Positions 29,994 through 40,892 of a DNA stretch of 64,000 nucleotides are shown piece by piece; the stretch's first letter is position 1; each line of letters starts with the position of its first letter. Location: NCBI GenBank assembly GCA_022813675.1, contig CP063375.1, positions 62,001 to 126,000 of the forward strand. The letters are read 5' to 3'. The DNA is from Deferribacteraceae bacterium V6Fe1. GTDB taxonomy: Bacteria > Chrysiogenota > Deferribacteres > Deferribacterales > Deferrivibrionaceae. The notes beneath the pieces are model-generated. The model did not search any database, was not told the origin of the DNA, and worked only from the letters and a program-made list of their open reading frames with translations. A program made the position numbers and the translations under genes.

Positions 29994-30428
29994 GCATCCT
30001 CATGTATATTAAACCTATGAAATATTCCCATCAACTCACTTTAATTATAAAAAATAAAAATGCAACAAAATCATCAAGATTTACTGCCAATGTCAATTAA
30101 AATCCCCACCTTATGAAACTTAAAATTTTTCAATTAGGTTTAGCTTATTTTTTACAACTTCTATCATTAAATTTTTACCTATTATTTTGTAGAAGCAAAA
30201 GGAACATCACTGAAGGTAGTTAAATGTTCAGCTAAAAGTGTATTAATTCGTTTATTTGTATGACACACAAATTGCAGTTTGGCCGAAGATAAAAGCCATA
30301 TCTGGACATGGAAACAGGTTTAACAAAATAGCAGCCAAAAAATGTATCCTAATGGGCAAGGGAATAATTAAACGTTATTTTTCAATTCTTTTTGGTGTAG
30401 TCAGCAATGCCAACTAGCACATAACTCC
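29994..30428. other. 435-bp non-coding stretch at the left edge of the accessory region
   Basis: I see no convincing gene, tRNA or terminator here. The sequence is AT-rich to about 30200 and then changes in texture. Just after the stop of the Rap1a-like gene, on the minus strand, a G/TTATGTGC core-like site occurs (about 30415-30423), which could be a decayed cassette end, but no matching hairpin is visible. Confidence 0.4.
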
Positions 30429-30788
30429 TCACCGACATGGATAGAAACGTTGCAGTACTGAGAGAACAGCATCATGAGCATTCATAGCTCGAAACCGGCT
30501 TGAAGCAGTAATTTCTTTCTCTGCAATGGTCACAAGATGGGTGCGTGAAGTACCATTTGGGATGCAAATTTTATCATCTTCACGAATACTATCAACAACC
30601 GCTTGGATGTAGCCGTTACAGAAACTGATCCAGCTCTCGTCAGCCTGCGTGCAGGCATTTGAAAAACTTGCTCCATTCATCTGTATTTTCGAATCAATTG
30701 CAAATGCAGGAATTGAAAATAATATTGTTGCCAAAATGACAACAGCCACCCACATACGAATAATCTTATCGAATGCTACGTTAAACAC
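30429..30788 (-). CDS. Rap1a/Tai-family immunity-like protein
   Basis: A 119-aa exported protein with a signal peptide (about 10-31, ending PAFA). The mature part has the Rap1a/Tai pattern: FSNACTQ, a CNGYIQAVVDS helix, the KICIPNGTSRTHLV stretch and the C-terminal RFYPC. Family members in Proteobacteria protect against peptidoglycan-targeting type VI effectors. Neither a matching effector nor secretion genes are in the window. It sits 45 bases downstream of a second attI-like core site and is probably a cassette gene. Start GTG 30788 follows GGAG. Confidence 0.75.
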   Translation of the reverse strand: MFNVAFDKIIRMWVAVVILATILFSIPAFAIDSKIQMNGASFSNACTQADESWISFCNGYIQAVVDSIREDDKICIPNGTSRTHLVTIAEKEITASSRFRAMNAHDAVLSVLQRFYPCR

Positions 30789-30832: not shown

Positions 30833-30888
30833 ACTATTTATTCTTTAACAAAATTTATCATAGCTAAAATTCTATGTCAACATTAATG
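30833..30888 (-). promoter_or_regulatory. attI-like site with cassette promoter, copy 1
   Basis: This segment matches 35495-35541 plus 37018-37025 almost base for base. On the minus strand it reads TTGACA (30880-30875), a 17-bp spacer and TAAATT (30857-30852), then a shared stretch AAAGAATAAATAG ending at the core G/TTAGGTGC (30834/30833). That order, promoter then recombination core then cassette gene, is the arrangement of an integron attI with its cassette promoter. No integrase gene lies beside this copy. Confidence 0.65.
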
Positions 30889-30929
30889 GAATTCTGCATT
30901 GTTCCAGTTTTTTCTGGATAGTAATCAAA

Positions 30930-30951
30930 ATCCCCGAGTCGCCCCGGGGAT
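30930..30951 (-). terminator. Intrinsic terminator, copy A
   Basis: The 7-bp stem ATCCCCG / CGGGGAT with an 8-base loop is followed on the minus strand by TTTT. It is the same hairpin as at 37668-37689 and lies just past the end of the truncated oxidoreductase copy. Confidence 0.8.
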
Positions 30952-30956
30952 AGTAG

Positions 30957-31497
30957 TTAGCCTTTTATCGCTTTATTTATAATATTTTCTGCTGCCATCA
31001 CTATTGCATTATTTGCCGGATAAAAGCTCTGAAATGGCTGAGCACAATAGCTGAAATTAAACAGATCCATAGCGGTATTATTATTTTGAATGGCAAGAGA
31101 AATTGTGTCTATTCTGCCAGGCACCCCTTCGCCTGCCACAACCTGCCCGCCTAAGATTTTCAATGTCTTTTTATCAGTAATAAGCTTTACTTTGACCTTT
31201 TTTGCTCCGGGAATTATCGGAAATCTGGTAGTAGTCTCACCATAGCCAACGATTACATCAAACCCTCTCTGCTTTGCCACTTCCTCGGTAAAGCCAGTGC
31301 CCCCCATCCTGTATTTCTCAACCTTTGTAATAGCACCGTTTATAAACCCTTGATATTTATAATCTCTACCCAATAAGTTATAGGCAAGTATTTTTGCCAT
31401 CGGCACAGCGTTTGTAGCAAGCTTGCCACCGATAGGCTTTTTATCAATGTAGGAAACAAAAGATGCCACATCACCTGCCGTATAGACATCTTTGATA
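30957..31497 (-). pseudogene. Truncated copy of the flavoprotein oxidoreductase (C-terminal third)
   Basis: The reading frame encodes the last ~180 residues of the same protein as 37695-39032, from I-K-D-V-Y-T-A-G-D onward. Only about six substitutions occur in the last 170 residues, and no gaps are present. The N-terminal FAD and NADH motifs are missing because the sequence switches abruptly at 31498 to the end of a gene cassette. A GTG or ATG within it could start a fragment at 31469, but no function is expected. Together with its terminator it forms a 576-bp direct repeat with 37660-38235. Confidence 0.9.
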
Positions 31498-31507
31498 GTT
31501 AGCCTGC
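31498..31507 (-). repeat. Cassette end box (R'') fused to the truncated gene
   Basis: Plus-strand GTTAGCCTGC here is the exact inverted partner of GCAGGCTAAC at 32573-32582. The pair brackets the DUF6884/GIY-YIG genes as start and end boxes of one cassette. The hairpin expected after the end box is absent; the sequence passes straight into the oxidoreductase fragment. The junction coincides with the G/TT crossover point of integron-type recombination. Confidence 0.65.
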
Positions 31508-32137
31508 TTCAATTGTCCTTTTCAAAATCTCCAAGTCTTCTTTAGAAAGTTGTTCCTTGAATAACCCATTCACAAGCCACAAGCCACTCTCGCGTACCTT
31601 GCGCTTTGGTGAACATATCCCTAACCAATTGGGAGACGGACGACATTCTTCGCACCATGATACTGTAGATATAATTCTCTCTTCCCACAGCAGGCGTTCT
31701 TCCTTGCCCTTTACAGCAAATACCACAAATGAAAAGTTTTGCTGGATGTATTCCGTTACTTTTCTCTCAACCTGATGTTGCTTTTCTTTATCAAGCAACA
31801 ATAAATAACGCTGATTCGCTTTCCTTGTCGTCAAATCCCAGTTCCATTGATCTAAAAACGGGTCTTTTGCCCTATGCAAAATTGCCCGCCCGATGTTTTT
31901 TCGAAAGATGCTTCGGTCTTTGTTCTCTTTTAAAAAGTGCTGTTTCAGCCGAGAACGCAATTGGTTTTCTCCCGTATGCGTTCCTACTCTCACTATCCGA
32001 TCTGCCCCGTGTGCAGATTCTCCTTTTTCAAAAAGAATGTAGATGCCATTGTAGGGTATTGCCTGCTCAACAAATGGAAACCGATGACGTGGTAGGCTGT
32101 TGAATAGGTCATGCAACCGCTGGCAAATTTCACTCAC
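31499..32137 (-). CDS. GIY-YIG-like nuclease-domain protein
   Basis: About 212 aa. The N-terminal part carries a GIY-YIG-like core: NGIYILFEKGE for the first strand, IVRVGTHTG for the second, the arginine of LRSRLKQHF, and a late LWEERIIS that can supply the metal-binding Glu. The C-terminal half is unassigned. The GTG start at 32137 overlaps the upstream stop (GTGA), so it is coupled to the DUF6884-like gene; a longer start at 32206 is less likely. Base composition is richer in GC than the surroundings. DNA cleavage or repair is plausible, and a defence role is only a guess. Confidence 0.7.
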   Translation of the reverse strand: MSEICQRLHDLFNSLPRHRFPFVEQAIPYNGIYILFEKGESAHGADRIVRVGTHTGENQLRSRLKQHFLKENKDRSIFRKNIGRAILHRAKDPFLDQWNWDLTTRKANQRYLLLLDKEKQHQVERKVTEYIQQNFSFVVFAVKGKEERLLWEERIISTVSWCEECRPSPNWLGICSPKRKVRESGLWLVNGLFKEQLSKEDLEILKRTIEAG

Positions 32138-32550
32138 GTTCCTGTTTTCTCCTTCAAAAATTGCAATTGTTTCCCAATAGGCAAACCGGCCAATGGCACT
32201 TGGCAAGATTGGAGATACGGCATCAGGTATTGCCGGTATTTTTTCCCAGCAAGTATGACAAAATGATCATTTTCCAAATCACAATACTCTCGAAGTTGCT
32301 CAATTACTTTCCTTGCCCAGTTTTTTCGTTCATGAGCAGACAAATTATTGAGCGTAACATCGTATGGCACTATTTCTTCATCCAAATCTATCAAACCGTA
32401 TTTCGCAGACAATATAAATATATTTTTGGGCGAAAACCGTTGGGCGTACTTCAGGTTCATTCGAAATAGCGGGCTGACGTACAAATCCCTAGCTCTTGCC
32501 CTATGCTGCAATTTCTTGCTCACACATGAAATCAGAACAACTGTGCTCAT
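32134..32550 (-). CDS. DUF6884/YaaA-like protein
   Basis: A 138-aa protein with LISCVSKK at the N-terminus, a DLYVSPLF motif, FILSAKYGLIDLDEEI and VPYDVTL. This pattern is that of the DUF6884 group, which resembles part of the YaaA fold. No activity is established for the group. It is coupled to the GIY-YIG-like gene and the pair occupies one cassette between the inverted boxes at 32573-32582 and 31498-31507. Confidence 0.65.
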   Translation of the reverse strand: MSTVVLISCVSKKLQHRARARDLYVSPLFRMNLKYAQRFSPKNIFILSAKYGLIDLDEEIVPYDVTLNNLSAHERKNWARKVIEQLREYCDLENDHFVILAGKKYRQYLMPYLQSCQVPLAGLPIGKQLQFLKEKTGT

Positions 32551-32572
32551 AATCTTAACTTAATCATTTAGT

Positions 32573-32633
32573 GCAGGCTAACGAAAAGCTCACCTGCCGC
32601 TATGAAGCTAAGCGGAAAAATGTCAGGTGCAAC
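32573..32633 (-). repeat. Gene-less 51-bp cassette-like segment with hairpin
   Basis: On the minus strand two core sites, G/TTGCACC (32633) and G/TTAGCC (32582), enclose about 51 bp and no gene. The interior folds through CACCTG (32591-32596) / CAGGTG (32624-32629) and CCGCT (32597-32601) / AGCGG (32611-32615). It may be a relic attC or an empty cassette. The 32573-32582 part is the start box of the next cassette. Confidence 0.5.
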
Positions 32634-32758
32634 GTTTGGGCTATGCGTAGTTTGGGATTTTGAAACGATTAACTTTCAATTTACAACTAATTTTATTTAA
32701 TGCTATAAACTTTAAAATTAACACTTTACCCAAATTACGTATAGCCTTTGTTGTGGTG
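32634..32758 (-). repeat. attC-like site of the protease cassette
   Basis: Arms GGCTATGCGTAGTTTGGG (32639-32656) and CCCAAATTACGTATAGCC (32729-32746) pair at 16 of 18 positions around a 72-base loop. Outside them, GTTGTGGTG (32750-32758) is the end box, inverted relative to CACCACAAC at 33618-33626, the start box of the same cassette. This box-arm-loop-arm-box order is the signature of an integron attC site. Confidence 0.7.
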
Positions 32759-32761
32759 TCG

Positions 32762-33595
32762 TTATTCCCTAAATAATTCTTCTAATTCGAGTATTCTTTC
32801 AGATTTTATAATCAGTCCCAAATTATTTGGGATACTTGAAAGAACCATAGGTTTTTGAAAATTTGGCGTCATAATTATTTCACCTTGAGCAGTTGCTTGT
32901 GGTCCAGCATACAACACTCCAAGAAATATTATTCTACTGGTTCCCATATAAGTATTTCCTTTTTTATCTCTATATCCACCTTCAATAAATATTAGCACTG
33001 GTGAGCCACTTGAACCAGGAAAAGCGGCAATATCAATCATAATTTCCTTTTTTCCGTTATAGTCAATTAAAGGATGTGTTGCTGTTGAGCCTTTACGTAA
33101 AATTGGCATATTATTAACTTCGTCCCAAATACCATTAGGATAACCAATCATTAAAACATCTTCAAGTGCTGACAGTTCTCCCTTATGCTTTTCTGTTAGT
33201 AATAAATCTTTTGTAAATGGAATGTAAAAGAGTTTCTCCCCTTTTTTATTCGCCTCATTTAGAAATGGGGCGATTGGCATTGCACATAAATCAACATCGT
33301 CATCAGGGTGTAATCTCCAAAATCTCTCAAAATTTTCAAATGATACAGAAAAGTGTTGAGTATCTAATGGTTCTCCTTTTTCATTTGCCTTAGTAATAAT
33401 TAGTTTTCCATTTTTTGAATTTCTGATAACGTGTTTATTTGTTATTACAACTGGAACGTGTGTTTTATTCTCTTTGTCTTCAAGAAAATTAAAAAAGAAG
33501 CCAGTTCCTGTAGATATTCCACCCGTTTTTAATTCACACTCAATTCTTACTGTTGAGTATGTTAATTGTTCTGATAATGATAAATTCATAGTCAT
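32762..33595 (-). CDS. Trypsin-like serine protease (cassette gene)
   Basis: A 277-aa protein with the chymotrypsin/trypsin-like fold and no signal peptide, so probably cytoplasmic. The catalytic triad is recognisable: His in VITNKHVIR, Asp in HPDDDVDLCAM, and Ser in AAFPGSSGSPVL. An N-terminal TGTGFFF strand fits the fold. The gene fills the cassette between boxes 33618-33626 and 32750-32758. An AAGGAA site precedes the ATG. Substrate and role are unknown; proteases of this type also occur in phage-defence modules, but nothing here proves such a role. Confidence 0.8.
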   Translation of the reverse strand: MTMNLSLSEQLTYSTVRIECELKTGGISTGTGFFFNFLEDKENKTHVPVVITNKHVIRNSKNGKLIITKANEKGEPLDTQHFSVSFENFERFWRLHPDDDVDLCAMPIAPFLNEANKKGEKLFYIPFTKDLLLTEKHKGELSALEDVLMIGYPNGIWDEVNNMPILRKGSTATHPLIDYNGKKEIMIDIAAFPGSSGSPVLIFIEGGYRDKKGNTYMGTSRIIFLGVLYAGPQATAQGEIIMTPNFQKPMVLSSIPNNLGLIIKSERILELEELFRE

Positions 33596-33617
33596 ATTAT
33601 TTCCTTTTTATTTAATG

Positions 33618-33685
33618 CACCACAACGTTTGTGTAAACGCTATTGTGTTTATCCCTCCAAATTGGCGGGCTAAACGCAATTGTGT
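33618..33685 (-). repeat. attC-like hairpin between recombinase and protease cassettes
   Basis: On the plus strand 33642-33680 is a near-palindrome with regularly spaced mismatches: ATTG, TTTA, CCC and CCAA pair with TTGG, GGG, TAAA and CAAT. The protease cassette's start box CACCACAAC (33618-33626) adjoins it. The end box expected for the recombinase cassette (complement of its start G/TTATGCG) is not recognisable, so this site may be decayed. Confidence 0.55.
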
Positions 33686-33716
33686 ATATTTTTCTTTTAT
33701 CATTTTAAAACTCTCC

Positions 33717-34553
33717 TTATTCGAAAAAATCATCAATAGGATTCCTGATTTTATCTATCGCCTTCTTTGAAACGTGTGTATAAATTTCAGTAGTCTTGGA
33801 ACTATTATGTCCCAACAACTCTTGAATATACCTTAAATCTGTACCTTGTTCAAGCAAGTGAGTTGCAAAACTATGTCGTAACATATGTGGGGTAACTTTT
33901 TTCTTGATCCCCGCATTTGATGCTGCTTTTTTGAGAATATTTGCAACACTTGTTGGAGAATATTTGCCACCTGTTTGGCCTTCAAAAAGATAAACCTTTG
34001 GTTTATAAGCTATATAATAATCACGTAATACTTTTAGCATATTTTCAGATAGCAGAGACATCCTATCTTTTTTCCCTTTTGCACCTTTAATATTTACAAT
34101 CATTCTTTCCGAATCTATATCAGATATTTTTAAGTTTATTAATTCACTACGCCTTAAACCTGCAGAATAAATCAACATTAAAATGCTTTGATGCTTAATG
34201 TTATTACAAGAATCAAAAAGCCTTTTAACTTCTTCTTTGCTAAGCACTTTTGGTAATTTATGTTCTTTCTTTGGCCTATATAATGTATAATATTGTTTTT
34301 CCCTACCCAGTACTTTTTCATAATAAAATTTAATAGCATTTATCCTTTGATTTTGCTGACTAATGGAAATATTTTTTGTTTTGATTAAATCAAGAATATA
34401 CTTATTTATTTCTTCTGTTTTAACATCTTCTAAATTTGAATTTTTGAAAAAATTATAAAAATCTTTAACATAATTACAATAAATATCTATTGTATTTTCA
34501 CTATATCTTTTTTGAGTTAGACGATTTTTATATTGTTCTAAAATTTCATTCAT
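33717..34553 (-). CDS. XerC/XerD-like tyrosine recombinase inside the array
   Basis: An intact 278-aa site-specific recombinase. The N-terminal SAM-like domain spans about 1-85. The catalytic set is complete: Arg in SAGLRRSEL, Lys in NIKGAKGKKDR, HMLRH, the His of LLGHNSS and the nucleophile in TEIYTHVS. It lacks the extra segment before the second Arg box that defines IntI proteins, so it is not the integron integrase. It follows the HNH cassette's attC, on the same strand as the cassettes, and may itself be cargo. Whether it acts on attC sites is unknown. Confidence 0.88.
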   Translation of the reverse strand: MNEILEQYKNRLTQKRYSENTIDIYCNYVKDFYNFFKNSNLEDVKTEEINKYILDLIKTKNISISQQNQRINAIKFYYEKVLGREKQYYTLYRPKKEHKLPKVLSKEEVKRLFDSCNNIKHQSILMLIYSAGLRRSELINLKISDIDSERMIVNIKGAKGKKDRMSLLSENMLKVLRDYYIAYKPKVYLFEGQTGGKYSPTSVANILKKAASNAGIKKKVTPHMLRHSFATHLLEQGTDLRYIQELLGHNSSKTTEIYTHVSKKAIDKIRNPIDDFFE

Positions 34554-34579
34554 ACAACTATGCTTTACCTGATTTTAAA

Positions 34580-34668
34580 CGCATAACACCTAGCATCACC
34601 AGCAGAAAAAAGCAGAGCGACGAAGGAGCGGCGCTTTTTGCTGTCCGAGTGCATGCGATTTTTATGCC
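34580..34668 (-). repeat. attC-like site of the HNH-WYL cassette
   Basis: Outer boxes CGCATAAC (34580-34587) and TTATGCC (34662-34668) pair over six bases, and an inner stem pairs CAGCA...AAAAAGC (34600-34613) with GCTTTTTGCTG (34633-34643). The end box TTATGCC is the inverted partner of GGCATAAC at 35489-35496, the start box of the same cassette. It overlaps the stop codon of the HNH gene, as is common in compact cassettes. Confidence 0.7.
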
Positions 34669-35480
34669 TATAATACTTTTAAGCCTCTCATTCGCTTTAA
34701 TGCAAATATACGCTCTGCTTTTCTGAGTTCACAATAACCACGAACACAAAGAGTTGAACCACTATCTCTTTGATGATCAACATTGATAAGTTCATATGGT
34801 TTAACAGTTCTTTGTTTGTAGCTTTTTTCGTTACACTTCTTGTAGCCAAAATTGATTCGCTTACCGTTTTCTATAGCATAGCGGATATTTGCTACACGTT
34901 TAGAAAAAGCTATTTCAGAACTGGTGAACTCACCAGAAAAATCTCGTCCTCCATGCTCCTTCGAGTGGCAATTCTCACACAGCAATATTAAGTTTGTTAT
35001 TTTGTTGCTACCGCCTTTAGATAATGGCTTAATGTGGTGCAAATGAAGATGCCCCCAGTTTCCGCACTTACTGCATTGTTCACCATCTCTTTCTACTACT
35101 TGACTTCTTCTCTCTTCCCAATCAGGGGGATATGTAAGAAAGTAATCGTATATTGGGGTGATTTTGGCACGTAAAGAAACTAAGCTATTGGACAACTGGG
35201 AAATATTTTCTTCAATTGCAGTAATTTCCCTTTCTATATCGAACGTATCAACAGCTGGCTTTGAAAATATAGAAATAATCTTAAATCCTAAACCTTCACG
35301 CTTTTCAATTTAACTCCTAAGTCTATTTAATTTCTCTTGCTGTGCATATATTTCGTTTTCAACATCCTCTTCCTTACCTTGAATAGAATTCAAACACGAT
35401 TCATGAATTATCCCGCCATCGGAAAGATGAATCCCATCGGAAGCCGCTTTTTTGCAAATTTTACAGGATGGCATTTTCAT
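34668..35480 (-). pseudogene. HNH endonuclease with WYL domain, interrupted by one stop codon
   Basis: Read from ATG 35480, the frame encodes a 57-residue segment with a zinc ribbon (CKIC and H-E-S-C), hits TAA at 35312-35310, then continues in the same frame to 34668. The downstream part holds a helical linker, an HNH nuclease (CSKCGNWGHLHLHHI, ILLCENCHSKEH) and a WYL-like ligand-binding domain (INFGYKKCNEKS to KRMRGLKVL). A restart at TTG 35195 would give a 175-aa HNH-WYL protein. Thus the gene is broken or yields a shortened product. The cassette starts eight bases before the ATG. Confidence 0.75.
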
Positions 35481-35490
35481 ACTCTTGTGG

Positions 35491-35541
35491 CATAACTATT
35501 TATTCTTTAACAAAATCTATCATAGTCAATATTCTATGTCA
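35491..35541 (-). promoter_or_regulatory. attI-like site with cassette promoter, copy 2 (left part, split by IS)
   Basis: Reading the minus strand toward the cassettes, this holds the -10 candidate TAGATT, the conserved AAAGAATAAATAG stretch and the core G/TTATGCC at 35496/35495. The -35 box TTGACA is complete at 37018-37013 on the other side of the insertion sequence. Because nine bases were duplicated, the left copy still has TGACA, with the element's terminal G replacing the first T. The promoter may therefore persist in weakened form. Confidence 0.65.
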
Positions 35542-37008
35542 CTGCCATCACCCCATTTTTTGCACCTTTAAGCTACAAGTAAACTTTTCTTTCTTTTCAT
35601 TTTTCCTAACTCATTAATCCGATGTCTTTTTTCCTTAATCTTAAAATAATAATCCAATTTAAAATAACACACTTTATCTGATTCATAAATCTTTTCCCTA
35701 AACCTAAAAAGTCGTTCTTTAGATGATAATAACAAGTTCATTAACCCATCTGAAATTCGATAATAAATAAATTTACATACAACCTTACCCTTACTATTAA
35801 ATTTCTCCCTTTTTGCCATATTCTCTAAAAGTTTTGAAACAATTGTATCTTTCTCTATTTGGCTTAATACATTCCAACAAAAGGATACTAACGATAATAT
35901 AGTCTTTAAAGATTCAAACTTCCTCACAAGACACTTTTCCAGCCCAAATTGCTGTTTCATAAATCTATAGCTTTCTTCTATTTTCCATCTCTTAAAATAA
36001 GATTTAATCCTAAAGTAAGCCTCCTTACTGCTACTTATGTGGCCTTCACATAAAAAATAAAGTTTATTCTTATTACCATGAAAGCTCACACTAATAACTG
36101 TAACTGCTCGATTGTTGTAGTAACATTTTGCATAACCATAAGAAATACCACCCTTCTTGTAACGCCTGTTTATTATACCATTGCAAATTTTATATACTGA
36201 CATCTTCTCGCCCTTATATTCTAAATGCCTCTTACCTGTGCTCCTAATAACAAAATTTAAATCTTCTCGAAGAAGATATCTTAAAATTACTCCCCTGTCA
36301 TAACCCCTATCAAATACAAATAAACCCTTATTTCGAAACTTATCTTTTAATTTATCCAGCATATTTAAGGTCTCTGTATTCTCACTTTTAAAGTCTTGAG
36401 ATTTAGAACTATAAGCATCTAAATATAATGAAAATAAACGTTTGCTACTGGGGCTATAACACACTGCATGATTTAAATGGAAGCCATTAGCAATACGACC
36501 ACTACTACCATCGTGGACTTTACCAATAAGCTCAAAGTTTCTACCATAATTGTGAACCAAATCTCCACCATCAATTGATATTATTAACCTGGAATCTGAT
36601 TCTGTTTCTTTAAGTGCGTAATCAATATTATATGCATTTGAAATAGCAAGTAGATGTGAATAATTAAATGTATTTCTTTGCAACCGCTTTAATGTGTGTT
36701 TAATTCCACACTTCTCATTTAAATAACCAGATATGGCAGTAAGATTTAAACTGCGAGTAGCAAAACAACCTGAAATAATCTCAAGAATATACTTTTGTTG
36801 CGGCTTTGTGAGATAATCATGAAGGTTTCTTGTAGTGTTTAACATTTTTCCCTTCACATTTTTAGTAATTTCACCTATCATAAACTGCCTCCATTTTGTT
36901 GTTATTGTTGCTTTTTTCGTTAAAATCATAATACAACATCTTGGAGGCATTATCAATTATAAATACCTGTCAAATAACATTTCTTATGTAAAAATGGGGT
37001 GATGCCAG
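35542..37008 (-). mobile_element. IS4-type insertion sequence, 1467 bp
   Basis: The ends are inverted repeats: left CTGCCATCACCCCATTTTT, and the right end read inward CTGGCATCACCCCATTTTT, one mismatch over 19 bases. The 9-bp sequence TCTATGTCA flanks both sides (35533-35541 and 37009-37017) as a target-site duplication. It holds one transposase gene and nothing else. The second attI-like copy at 30833-30888 shows the uninterrupted target, confirming the insertion point. Confidence 0.93.
35568..36881 (-). CDS. IS4-type transposase
   Basis: A 437-aa DDE transposase. The first Asp is in IISIDGGDLVHNYG, the second in LFVFDRGYDRG, and the Glu in KRWKIEESYRFMKQQFG, whose Y-R/E spacing resembles the IS4 signature. 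ATG 36881 is chosen since GGAGG lies seven bases upstream; longer starts would lack it. The frame appears intact, so the element may be active. Confidence 0.9.
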   Translation of the reverse strand: MIGEITKNVKGKMLNTTRNLHDYLTKPQQKYILEIISGCFATRSLNLTAISGYLNEKCGIKHTLKRLQRNTFNYSHLLAISNAYNIDYALKETESDSRLIISIDGGDLVHNYGRNFELIGKVHDGSSGRIANGFHLNHAVCYSPSSKRLFSLYLDAYSSKSQDFKSENTETLNMLDKLKDKFRNKGLFVFDRGYDRGVILRYLLREDLNFVIRSTGKRHLEYKGEKMSVYKICNGIINRRYKKGGISYGYAKCYYNNRAVTVISVSFHGNKNKLYFLCEGHISSSKEAYFRIKSYFKRWKIEESYRFMKQQFGLEKCLVRKFESLKTILSLVSFCWNVLSQIEKDTIVSKLLENMAKREKFNSKGKVVCKFIYYRISDGLMNLLLSSKERLFRFREKIYESDKVCYFKLDYYFKIKEKRHRINELGKMKRKKSLLVA

Positions 37009-37030
37009 TCTATGTCAATATTAATCAAAG
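37009..37030 (-). promoter_or_regulatory. Right part of the split attI-like site (-35 side)
   Basis: It begins with the target-site duplication TCTATGTCA and carries on as ATATTAATC, matching the sequence next to copy 1 (30872-30888). It contains minus-strand TTGACA at 37018-37013, the original -35 box of the cassette promoter. Confidence 0.6.
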
Positions 37031-37126
37031 GACATGAATCAAAACTCACCTAATTTATGATTAAACATTGCTTTTATAATTTTGAAATATAAATTGTGAT
37101 ATTATTACACGCAAAAAGGTTCTAAT

Positions 37127-37572
37127 ATGGAAAAAGAGAAAAAATTATTAGACATTGTGAGAGAAAAAATACGTGTTAGACAATATAGTTTTCAAACTGA
37201 AAAAACATATATTGGATGGACAAAAAGATATATTTATTTCATAACAAAAAGCATCCTAGCAAATCAAGAAAAAAAGATATAGAAGCATTTTTAACTCATC
37301 TTGCTGTCGATAAAAACGTTTCTGCAACAACTTAAAACCAAGCTTTTAATGGTATCTTATTTTTATACGAAAATGTCTTAGATATATCTTTAAAAGAATC
37401 TAACATAAATACTCTGCGTGCCAAAAGAAGAGAACATATGCTACAAAGTGGGATAGATATAAGGACTATACAAGAGCTTTTAGGCCATAAAGACATAAGT
37501 ACTACAATGATATATGTCCATATTCTAAAAGATTTAAACAAAAATATGATAAAAAGTCCTTTGGACTTCTAA
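37127..37572 (+). pseudogene. intI: Decayed integron integrase (intI)
   Basis: The N-terminal frame reads LLDIVREKIRVRQYSFQTEK and TYIGWTKRYIY, then a one-base loss in a T run near 37240 shifts the frame to FHNKKHPSKSRKKDIEAFLT and HLAVDKNVSATT. A CAA-to-TAA-type stop follows, then NQAFNGILFLYENVLD. At about 37434 the text jumps from LRAKRRE to HMLQSGIDIRTIQELLGHKD and ends at SPLDF. These are IntI family signatures. The central catalytic region, with the first Arg box and the IntI-specific insert, is deleted. It diverges from the cassette array as in canonical integrons. Confidence 0.88.
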
Positions 37573-37659: not shown

Positions 37660-38235
37660 TAATCAAAATCCCCGAGCTACCCCGGGGATAATATTTACTT
37701 TTTTAGTACCTTATTTAAAATATTTTCCGCTGCCATCACTATTGCATTATTTGCCGGATAAAAGCTCTGAAATGGCTGAGCACAATAGCTAAAATTAAAC
37801 AAATCCATAGCGGTATTATTATTTTGAATGGCAAGAGAAATTGTGTCTATTCTGCCAGGCACCCCTTCGCCTGCCACAACCTGCCCGCCTAAGATTTTCA
37901 ATGTCTTTTTATCAGCAATAAGCTTTACTTTGACCTTTTTTGCTCCGGGAATTATCGGAAATCTGGTAGTAGTCTCACCATAACCGGCTATTACATCAAA
38001 CCCTCTCTGCTTTGCCACTTCCTCGGTAAAGCCAGTGCCCCCCATCCTGTATTTCTCAACCTTTGTAATAGCACCATTTATAAACCCTTGATATTTATAA
38101 TCTCTGCCCAATAAATTATAGGCAAGTATTTTTGCCATCGGCACAGCGTTTGTAGCAAGCTTGCCACCGATAGGCTTTTTATCAATGTAGGAAACAAAAG
38201 ATGCCACATCACCTGCTGCATATACATCCTTGATA
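37660..38235. repeat. 576-bp direct repeat, partner of 30922-31497
   Basis: The two segments align at a constant offset of 6738 bp with no gaps seen, differing only by scattered substitutions. They include the terminator and the last third of the oxidoreductase gene. Recombination between them would remove the integron array and leave an intact gene. Confidence 0.88.
37668..37689 (-). terminator. Intrinsic terminator of the oxidoreductase gene, copy B
   Basis: Stem ATCCCCG (37668-37674) / CGGGGAT (37683-37689) with an 8-base loop; on the minus strand TTTT follows. It lies 5 bases past the stop codon of the full oxidoreductase gene. Confidence 0.85.
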
Positions 38236-39032
38236 TTTGTTTCCATCTTTTCATTGACCACTATCCCATAATTGTCAATTTTAAGTGCAGTATCCTTAAA
38301 TATTTCCACATTAGCCTTTACGCCCACAGAAAAAATTATCAAATCATTTTCTCCAAGCTCAATATGGCTACCGTCAGATAAATTTACCTTTTGGACAAAT
38401 TTTTCTCCATCAAGACTTTCTACCTTTGTATTAAGTAGCAATTTGACACCAATCCCACCTATCTCCTCTTCCGGCAGTTCAGTCATATCTTTATCAAGCA
38501 GATTGGGCAATACCCTATCTTGCATCTCTACAAGATAAGTCTGCAAACCTTTTCTAAAAAGTGCCACAGCCATCTCAATGCCTATATTTCCGGCACCGAC
38601 TACCACTGCCTTTTTGGCACCGCTATTTATACACCCGAGAATCTGCTCCAAATCGCTTTCGGTCTTTACTGTCGCTATATTTTCCAAATGGCTCCCTTTT
38701 ATTGGTGGTACAAATGGTGAAGCTCCTGTAGCAATAATAAGTTTGTCATATTCAAAGCTGCCATTATTTTCCGTAAATACGTTTTTTTTATCAAAATCAA
38801 CCTTTACAACTTTATCTTTTACAAGCTTTGCACCGACATCAAGCACAAGGCTATCTTGCTTTCTAATCTTTTCCTTCTCTACCAAATCTTCTACTACGTA
38901 AGGCAAAGCACAGTAAATGACACTGTAAGGTTCTGGTCTTACCATTGTGATGTCAATCTGATCATTATGTGCCTTAAGTGTCCTTGTCGCCTGTATCCCT
39001 GCCGGTCCACCACCAATAACCACTACTCTCAT
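37695..39032 (-). CDS. FAD-dependent pyridine-nucleotide oxidoreductase (NADH oxidase / CoA-disulfide reductase family)
   Basis: A 445-aa flavoenzyme. FAD-binding GGGPAGIQATRTL opens the chain. A single conserved Cys lies in YSVIYCALPYVVE (about residue 45), the position of the redox Cys in NADH oxidase, CoA-disulfide and related sulfur reductases. The NAD(P)H motif is GAGNIGIEMAVAL, the second FAD motif is DVYAAGDVASF, and a C-terminal dimerisation domain follows. The substrate could be CoA-disulfide, polysulfide or oxygen; sequence cannot decide. It is transcribed alone from a promoter overlapped by a palindrome, and its 3' third is duplicated at 30957-31497. Confidence 0.88.
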   Translation of the reverse strand: MRVVVIGGGPAGIQATRTLKAHNDQIDITMVRPEPYSVIYCALPYVVEDLVEKEKIRKQDSLVLDVGAKLVKDKVVKVDFDKKNVFTENNGSFEYDKLIIATGASPFVPPIKGSHLENIATVKTESDLEQILGCINSGAKKAVVVGAGNIGIEMAVALFRKGLQTYLVEMQDRVLPNLLDKDMTELPEEEIGGIGVKLLLNTKVESLDGEKFVQKVNLSDGSHIELGENDLIIFSVGVKANVEIFKDTALKIDNYGIVVNEKMETNIKDVYAAGDVASFVSYIDKKPIGGKLATNAVPMAKILAYNLLGRDYKYQGFINGAITKVEKYRMGGTGFTEEVAKQRGFDVIAGYGETTTRFPIIPGAKKVKVKLIADKKTLKILGGQVVAGEGVPGRIDTISLAIQNNNTAMDLFNFSYCAQPFQSFYPANNAIVMAAENILNKVLKK

Positions 39033-39046
39033 AATCTTCCTCCTTC

Positions 39047-39094
39047 ATTCATATAGCAATATATGAATATATGTATTTACAGATATATAGTCAA
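39047..39094 (-). promoter_or_regulatory. Promoter and operator of the flavoprotein oxidoreductase
   Basis: On the minus strand TTGACT (39094-39089), a 17-bp spacer and TATATT (39071-39066) form a good promoter. The inverted repeat ATTCATATA (39047-39055) / TATATGAAT (39060-39068) overlaps its -10 and start region, a position suited to repression. The arm sequence resembles the palindrome at 29283-29312. Confidence 0.7.
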
Positions 39095-39212
39095 CGACTT
39101 TTTTGAATATTTACCCGTTTATTGTCCGGCAACCTGTCAAATATAACAATATTCAATTTCTCTTCATTGCAAAATTTATTGCTCTAAATTAACCTCCTTG
39201 ATATTATTGATT

Positions 39213-40892
39213 ATGAAAATTAGGCTACCAAAAATTTATTACTTGATGTTTGCATCTATCTGCGTGGGGCTGCTCTCCAAATTTTTCTTAATAATTGCGT
39301 ATCTGCTAAGTATCATATTGATAATATTATTTTTTGAAAAAAGGCTAAGGCAGATTTTACTATTTTTGTTATGTGGGATATTTTTAATTAGCAACTTTGC
39401 AACGGTAATTCTTGATAAAAAAAGCTATGGTAAAAAGGCTACAACATATTACTCAATCACAAAAAATTTCAAATCATATGAAAATTTTGATATAGGCGAC
39501 ATCATAATCGGCAAAAAAGAGTCTATAAATCAATATTCTATTAACATTAAGCCGCTCTTGACTTTAAAAATTCCAGTTGTGTCTTCAATAATCTCATTCA
39601 GAAAGAATTTAAGCGAAAGACTATATCTAAAATCAGGGGAAAAGCTAACTTTAATTCAAGGATTGATTCTCGGAGATAAAAGTAAGATAAGCGGAGCCAC
39701 AAAGGATAAATTTACCTATCTCGGCCTAAATCACTATCTTGCAATTTCGGGGCTTCATATAGGAATAATTGCAGTAGTCCTGATAACTCTAATACCAAAA
39801 ATACCTTTAAAACCGAAGCTTTTGATTGTATCTATCATCTTACTATTCTTCACGATACTGACAGGCTTTAAAATACCTGTCATACGCTCTGTAATATTTT
39901 TTGCAATCTTAACTATAACCTACATTATGAATGTAAAAGTCGATTTCAAAAATTTTGTTATACTTATAGGCTCTATTTTTACACTTATCTCCCCTCCCAC
40001 TATTTTTAATTTATCATTTATATTGTCATTTTCCGCCATTTTAGGAATCGCATTTATTATTGAGGAGGAAAAACATTTTTTATTTAACATTTTTATAACT
40101 TCAATAGCTGCAACAATTTTTACTCTACCTTTTGTGCTCTACTTTTTCAAAATGTATAATTTTTTGGCTGTTATAAATACGATAGTAGTTTTTCCGATAA
40201 TCTATCTGCATATTGTATGCGGCGTTTTTACGCTACTATATGAAAATATTTTTATAAGGCCGCTTATTGTAAATGAAAATATTTTAAATCAGATGCTTGA
40301 TCTTTTGATAAAATATGAATCTCATTTTTTTACAACAAATAAAATCCCACTCATTATATTTGTAGTGATGCTCTTAACCATACTTATTTCTCTAATAACA
40401 AGAAAGAAAATACTACTTGTCATTATTCCTATTTTGGCTTTGATACCTTATTATACTCCTGATAAAAATATCTACTTTCCAAACTTTATAAGAAGTAAAG
40501 CCGTAATCGATATGACTTCAAATGAGATTTATTACCAGGGGTTTTATTCAGATTACAGATACAAACTACTCCCCTATCTGCTCGACAAAAATATCAGTTT
40601 AAAATTTAATCGCGGCTATTTTAGAATATATGACGGAGAAAATATCTTTATAAAACATAATGAAGAAATTAAATCACTGACAAATATTTGCATAAATAGC
40701 ACTAACGACAACTGTCTATTTGAATATTTTACAAACAAAGGCTATTTTAAAGGGATAACGTATAGACAAGACAAAATTTACATTGTATATGATACGGACT
40801 TGGAAAAGGGGAATATTTTTACTCTAAAAAACAAAAAAGAGCTTATTTTTAGTCCAAAGGGAGCATTAATAGATGAAAATTTTCCTAAATGA
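39213..40892 (+). CDS. comEC: ComEC/Rec2-family competence membrane protein (short form)
   Basis: About 559 aa, with many transmembrane helices. The Competence domain is recognisable by the segment GLILGDKSKISGATKDKF and then HYLAISGLHIGIIAVV, the most conserved ComEC signature. ComEC forms the inner-membrane channel for single-stranded DNA in natural transformation. The C-terminal metallo-beta-lactamase-like domain of longer homologues is absent. ATG 39213 is favoured over an earlier TTG at 39198, but neither has a clear ribosome site. It overlaps thiF by 20 bases. Uptake of DNA would be one route for the array's foreign cassettes. Confidence 0.85.
   Translation: MKIRLPKIYYLMFASICVGLLSKFFLIIAYLLSIILIILFFEKRLRQILLFLLCGIFLISNFATVILDKKSYGKKATTYYSITKNFKSYENFDIGDIIIGKKESINQYSINIKPLLTLKIPVVSSIISFRKNLSERLYLKSGEKLTLIQGLILGDKSKISGATKDKFTYLGLNHYLAISGLHIGIIAVVLITLIPKIPLKPKLLIVSIILLFFTILTGFKIPVIRSVIFFAILTITYIMNVKVDFKNFVILIGSIFTLISPPTIFNLSFILSFSAILGIAFIIEEEKHFLFNIFITSIAATIFTLPFVLYFFKMYNFLAVINTIVVFPIIYLHIVCGVFTLLYENIFIRPLIVNENILNQMLDLLIKYESHFFTTNKIPLIIFVVMLLTILISLITRKKILLVIIPILALIPYYTPDKNIYFPNFIRSKAVIDMTSNEIYYQGFYSDYRYKLLPYLLDKNISLKFNRGYFRIYDGENIFIKHNEEIKSLTNICINSTNDNCLFEYFTNKGYFKGITYRQDKIYIVYDTDLEKGNIFTLKNKKELIFSPKGALIDENFPK

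Follow-up and report, generated by a model that had tools for sequence, protein, structure and literature searches.

Evidence for a decayed chromosomal integron in the thermophilic iron reducer Deferrivibrio metallireducens

Does the chromosome of Deferrivibrio metallireducens V6Fe1T, a heat-loving iron reducer whose genome has been described (PMC11896075), carry an integron, and what is left of it? We analyzed a window of 64,000 nucleotides (G000:C1:62001-126000) from this genome, which is a single contig of 2,358,333 bp. An earlier note, made from the sequence of the window alone, had proposed that positions 30833-37572 hold a chromosomal integron with a decayed integrase gene, intI. An integrase tree, an orthologous platform in related genomes, attC homology, and cognate cassette boxes bear this proposal out, and we put the probability at about 95% that the locus is a chromosomal integron, either gained by the genus Deferrivibrio or inherited from its ancestors, that is now a fossil. 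The element extends the occurrence of a known system and works or worked like other sedentary chromosomal integrons; it is a decayed integron, and we do not claim a complete, active one.

An integrase remnant at 37127-37572

The plus-strand segment 37127-37572 retains the N-terminal ~105 and the C-terminal ~44 residues of an integron integrase. It matches the integron integrase model TIGR02249 with 139.9 bits (1.2e-40), compared to 51 bits (1e-13) for XerD. In a tree of 30 proteins, 16 of them IntI, the remnant covers 45% of the alignment columns and groups with the 16 IntI proteins at a support of 100/99.9, while a constrained tree that places it among the Xer recombinases is rejected (approximately unbiased [AU] test, p-AU 0.005). 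The alignment reveals a C-terminal SPLD motif common to the remnant and IntI, and the stretch that carries the IntI-specific insert lies inside the deletion of the remnant. Its nearest IntI in the tree, with moderate support (84/94), comes from another class of the same GTDB-style phylum (genome G002), and no IntI in the comparison exceeds 53% identity to the remnant.

A functional, intact intI is not present in the window, since a single frameshift and a single internal stop split the remnant over reading frames, and the catalytic arginine-lysine-HxxR region has been lost along with the rest of the protein's middle part in a large internal deletion. Because this catalytic middle is gone, in addition to the frameshift and the stop, the enzyme would be dead.

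Two attI copies, one split by an insertion sequence

The platform around the remnant consists of the following features, listed from the flanking gene toward the distal end of the array.

37695..39032, minus strand: full-length oxidoreductase gene (pyridine-nucleotide, coenzyme A [CoA]-disulfide-reductase-like) flanking the platform; the same neighbor is found in both other Deferrivibrio genomes
37127..37572, plus strand: intI pseudogene, identified by model match, alignment, tree, and reading frames
37009..37060, minus strand: intI-proximal half of the right attI, beyond the insertion sequence; outer end approximate, from comparison with the left copy and the sister species
35542..37008, minus strand: IS4-like insertion sequence (IS) inside attI and the promoter Pc, with a DDE transposase gene at 35568-36956
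35496..35541, minus strand: cassette-proximal half of the right attI; core AAATA|G|TTATGCC, Pc with -35 GTGACA and -10 TAGATT
30957..31497, minus strand: truncated, duplicated copy of the 3' end of the oxidoreductase gene, 96.3% identical to 37695-38207
30834..30890, minus strand: left attI copy, from sequence comparison; Pc TTGACA-17-TAAATT, its intI deleted

The attI-like promoter and core site described in the earlier note is present twice in the window, with cores at 30833/34 and 35495/96 and a TTGACA-type promoter pattern. Together with the single copy in the related genome G012, this gives three attI copies with a G|TT recombination point beside intI; the core AAATA|G|TTA is identical in all three, and three different cassettes are joined to it. 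A TTGACA-17-TA-rich hexamer pattern, our candidate Pc, accompanies the three copies, although such consensus matches are about equally frequent in shuffled sequence. The right copy is split by the IS4-like element, which spans 1467 bp and possesses terminal inverted repeats of ~19 nt and a 9-nt target duplication (TCTATGTCA, at 35533-35541 and 37009-37017); because the element splits the site, the -35 hexamer of this copy now reads GTGACA.

A short array of cassettes with cognate boxes

As the earlier note describes, a minus-strand array diverges from the plus-strand remnant, and it is made of cassettes. From attI outward, all on the minus strand, these are as follows.

34587..35495: cassette 1, an HNH-WYL gene (Pfam HNH and WYL) with an in-frame TAA, a pseudogene; boxes TTATGCC / GGCATAA
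34580..34667: attC of cassette 1 (attC1), recognized by homology to erythromycin-esterase attCs; R'' AAC changed to AAA
33626..34586: segment with an intact, XerA-like tyrosine recombinase gene (33717-34553); start and end boxes non-cognate
33622..33705: attC-like hairpin between the protease and the tyrosine recombinase, from its bottom-strand fold
32633..33625: trypsin-like protease cassette (Trypsin_2; PDC-S45, 1.2e-115); cognate boxes TTGTGGTG / CACCACAA
32625..32757: attC of the protease cassette, with a long stem and an AT-rich loop of ~80 nt, from its bottom-strand fold
32582..32632: remnant cassette of 51 nt without an open reading frame (ORF), essentially an attC half, from sequence and a fold that is not significant
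31498..32581: cassette with DUF6884 (32134-32550) and GIY-type (31499-32206) genes, PDC-M57A/B; cognate boxes TTAGCCTGC / GCAGGCTAA
30429..30833: cassette remnant with a Rap1a-family gene (30429-30788; Pfam Rap1a, 7e-13), joined to the left attI core G|TTAGGTGC

The Rap1a-family cassette carries the array further left than 30833, where the earlier note had placed its end. Since the end boxes of the recombinase segment are non-cognate, this segment is probably a fusion of two cassettes, and the DUF6884/GIY cassette has lost its remaining attC at the junction with the duplicated oxidoreductase fragment.

The first bases of an integron cassette are expected to be complementary to its own end box. 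Cognate start and end boxes match over 7 nt in the HNH cassette, 8 nt in the protease cassette, and 9 nt in the DUF6884/GIY cassette, compared to at most 6 nt for non-cognate pairs. When hairpin folding energies were compared with those of dinucleotide shuffles, the protease end (z -3.4) and the tyrosine-recombinase end (z -4.0) stood out, while the HNH site and that of the 51-nt remnant were not exceptional (z about -1.2). The inverted boxes and attC-like hairpins of the earlier proposal are thus retained for the boxes of these three cassettes and for the protease and recombinase hairpins, but the folding energies of the HNH and 51-nt sites are ordinary.

On sequence grounds, the proof of attC identity is homology to the attCs of real integrons. 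Over 84 nt, the HNH attC shares 81% identity (E 4e-13) with an erythromycin-esterase cassette attC from plasmid integrons (NZ_KX832927, MN366359), where the match directly follows the erythromycin-esterase gene and the array on a Providencia plasmid is headed by an annotated integron integrase. It similarly matches the site between the erythromycin-esterase gene and aadA1 in a class 1 integron on plasmid pALTS31, and it is 85% identical over 60 nt to an attC of G012; the same attC family takes in this G012 site as well as sites on plasmids of Desulfosarcina and Nitrosococcus. Unlike its plasmid counterparts in NZ_KX832927 and MN366359, the window attC follows a different gene, has lost the C of the R'' AAC, and lies in a chromosomal element that lacks a functional integrase.

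Two attC covariance models, R1 and R2, which we built from known attC sites, detect the control attCs and the G012 sites but do not recover the window sites above chance, and a strict RYYYAAC...GTTRRRY scan of the window found no match at the array boundaries and picked out coding sequence instead. The earlier note had held that a lack of attC model hits would speak against an integron; nominally this is the outcome with generic models, but it is outweighed by the direct homology to attCs of real integrons. That the cassettes are separated by attCs with R''/R' boxes and folded stems is borne out by attC1 homology, cognate boxes, hairpins, and the canonical sites of G012. Such arrays can escape generic attC models, and surveys of host range that use them may undercount fossil integrons.

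The same platform in three Deferrivibrio genomes

At the orthologous locus, the sister species represented by G012, probably D. essentukiensis, shares the oxidoreductase gene and the left flank with the window and has an intI stub of ~42 codons, attI, and cassettes for DUF2059 and a small multidrug-resistance (SMR) pump. Its two attCs have the canonical form, in that their R''/R' boxes match and their bottom strands fold strongly, and its cassettes have cognate boxes of 9 and 8 nt. A third genome, G013, carries the same array as G012, so the order oxidoreductase, intI, attI, minus-strand cassettes stands beside the same gene in three Deferrivibrio genomes. The cassettes of the window and G012 differ yet join attI at the identical base, and intI is broken differently in the two, as a pseudogene in the window and a stub in G012. 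In this genus, then, intI is degraded in three genomes while cassettes differ between species.

While the integron was alive, circular cassettes would have been inserted by IntI, which would have recombined their folded bottom-strand attCs with attI at the G|TT point, so that each new cassette came to lie beside attI and under Pc. Cassette capture would have preceded the decay of intI; the later erosion of the array would have come about through an IS insertion, a partial duplication, the fusion of cassettes, and the loss of attC boxes.

In its fate, the Deferrivibrio integron is closest to the sedentary chromosomal integrons of Xanthomonas, which include inactivated intI genes and fossilized arrays (PMC12444791). 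Both share a fixed locus by one housekeeping gene, genus-level inheritance, loss of intI through frameshift, stop, or deletion, and fossilized arrays. Unlike the Xanthomonas integrons, the Deferrivibrio element lies in another phylum and beside another gene, its intI is broken in all three genomes, its arrays are very short, and its platform is partly duplicated.

The arrays of G013 and G012 are identical (100%) over ~2.44 kb that span the integron and the 3' end of the oxidoreductase gene (L099, G013:C21, 112-2553, versus L057, G012:C2, 3667-6107). Identity falls to ~72% at L099 2554-2569, with ~70-80% in the compared flank and beyond, and this break is no more than ~10 bp away from the point at which, by homology, the duplicated gene copy in the window is truncated (31497). 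One tentative reading, which we consider doubtful, is that the whole integron moves between Deferrivibrio species with an oxidoreductase anchor of ~540 bp; if true, an integron that is itself dead would still have a way to spread its array, through a fixed junction in a housekeeping gene. Rather than a recent transfer, the break may mark a contig of chimeric origin in G013, apparently a metagenome-assembled genome.

Alternative explanations

Several observations weigh against an integron. R1 and R2 score the window attCs at or below chance, with 14 bits and an E of 1.4 (R2) for 34581-34667; the protease, recombinase, and 51-nt attC regions have no database homologue; cognate boxes are absent from the recombinase segment; and a box search recognized no distal attC for the Rap1a segment. 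In addition, none of the three genomes of the genus has an intact IntI, and activity is hence not readable from sequence. That 37127-37572 is the remnant of a Xer-type recombinase beside unrelated repeats, the outcome that the earlier note had named as refuting its proposal, would be compatible with folds common among tyrosine recombinases and with the partial coverage of the tree, but the model scores, the tree with its AU test, and the shared SPLD motif leave this explanation with almost no probability.

It is very improbable, though less so, that the locus is a defense or genomic island mobilized by the intact tyrosine recombinase at 33717-34553, in which repeats mimic an integron by chance. 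The recombinase is intact and kin to phage, Bacteroidota, and TnpF-type recombinases, the cargo is defense-like, and the oxidoreductase gene has a duplicated 3' end, such as integration at a gene end would leave. However, the recombinase is located within the array, the orthologous integrons of G012 and G013 do not carry it, and G012 already shows cassette boundaries at G|TT points in its absence; only an integron accounts for the IntI pseudogene, the attI core, the cognate boxes, and the attC homology. Somewhat less remote, but still improbable, is import of a cassette island with attI and intI remains as a block from a proteobacterium, the integron never having been active in Deferrivibrio. 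attC1 is indeed closest to plasmid sites of Gammaproteobacteria and Thermodesulfobacteriota, but the remnant is not close to any IntI in the comparison, and different cassettes at the same attI base, in the two window copies and in G012, would point to capture at this platform, unless all were captured in donors before transfer.

Cargo and the cassette-borne recombinase

The earlier note had suggested that the cargo may include unrecognized defense systems. This does not hold for the DUF6884 and GIY-type pair or the protease, which match PADLOC models PDC-M57A (1e-60), PDC-M57B (2e-99), and PDC-S45 (1e-115); these are catalogued candidate defense families, not new ones. The library itself claims only candidate status for these families, which are carried here as integron cassettes, so that candidate phage-defense genes are seen in cassettes of a thermophilic iron reducer.

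We also considered whether the recombinase at 33717-34553, which scores above the cut-off of NF040815 but below that of TIGR02249, could be a replacement IntI. We rejected this idea: in the alignment the protein has no IntI-specific insert, in the tree it falls outside the IntI clade, its relatives include phage and TnpF recombinases, and the sister integrons do not carry it.

Duplication and erosion at the oxidoreductase gene

The repeat at 30834-31497 takes in attI as well as the terminator and 3' end of the oxidoreductase gene, and its junction with the DUF6884/GIY cassette coincides exactly with the outer edge of the cassette's R'' box. The duplication appears to postdate the split between the window and G012, as the sequence there differs by 15% between the two, whereas the two gene copies in the window share 96.3% identity. 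The IS in attI/Pc, the partial duplication, and the cassette-borne tyrosine recombinase are seen in the window and not in the other genomes.

Further into the flank, window positions 38500-40250 are 92-100% identical to G012 (L057 6376-8128) in a neighborhood of ~84-89%, which suggests homologous recombination between the two species. We considered whether the rise in identity past the 3' end of the gene could mark a third coincident breakpoint and rejected this, because the near-identical tract begins near 38500 and not at 38230. Near the distal end of the array, a repeat of ~45-86 bp with a GGGGATTTTTAATTGAC motif (window 30082-30157; L057 3767-3852) recurs at several further sites in G000, G012, and G013 and is possibly derived from the ends of an IS family.

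Host range

Deferrivibrio belongs to the class Deferribacteres of the Deferribacterota. Integrons are not mentioned in the main text of the genome description (PMC11896075), and the literature searched, which lacks most subscription papers, describes no integron in Deferribacteres or Deferribacterota. Among 51 genomes of the GTDB-style phylum, screened with the TIGR02249-type model at its cut-off, IntI was found only in G002 and G003, both of family f10 (probably Chrysiogenaceae), and no full intI was found in the genomes of the class Deferribacteres. A search of genome contigs with the window's intI remnant as query returned only six loci, with no close relative among them. The IntI of G003 belongs to a class 1 integron and is 99% identical to plasmid IntI1.

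IntI genes occur in f10 of the same GTDB-style phylum, and a host of a class 1 integron has already been described from Chrysiogenetes (PMC6054849), so the novelty is limited to class and genus. The idea of a new host lineage therefore stands for a Deferribacterota host, with class Deferribacteres and genus Deferrivibrio new, but not for the whole GTDB phylum, and as far as the searched literature shows, known chromosomal-integron hosts are extended to the class Deferribacteres.

Two further loci of family f10 were seen alongside. G002 encodes a full-length IntI (G002:C4:191629-192570, 367 bits), with no site found by a strict attC scan of the surrounding 19 kb. G001 carries a broken IntI piece (G001:C8:152713-152886) with attC-like sites and cassette-like ORFs beside it (L056, G001:C8, 10864-14085), and this locus is another decayed integron in the GTDB-style phylum.

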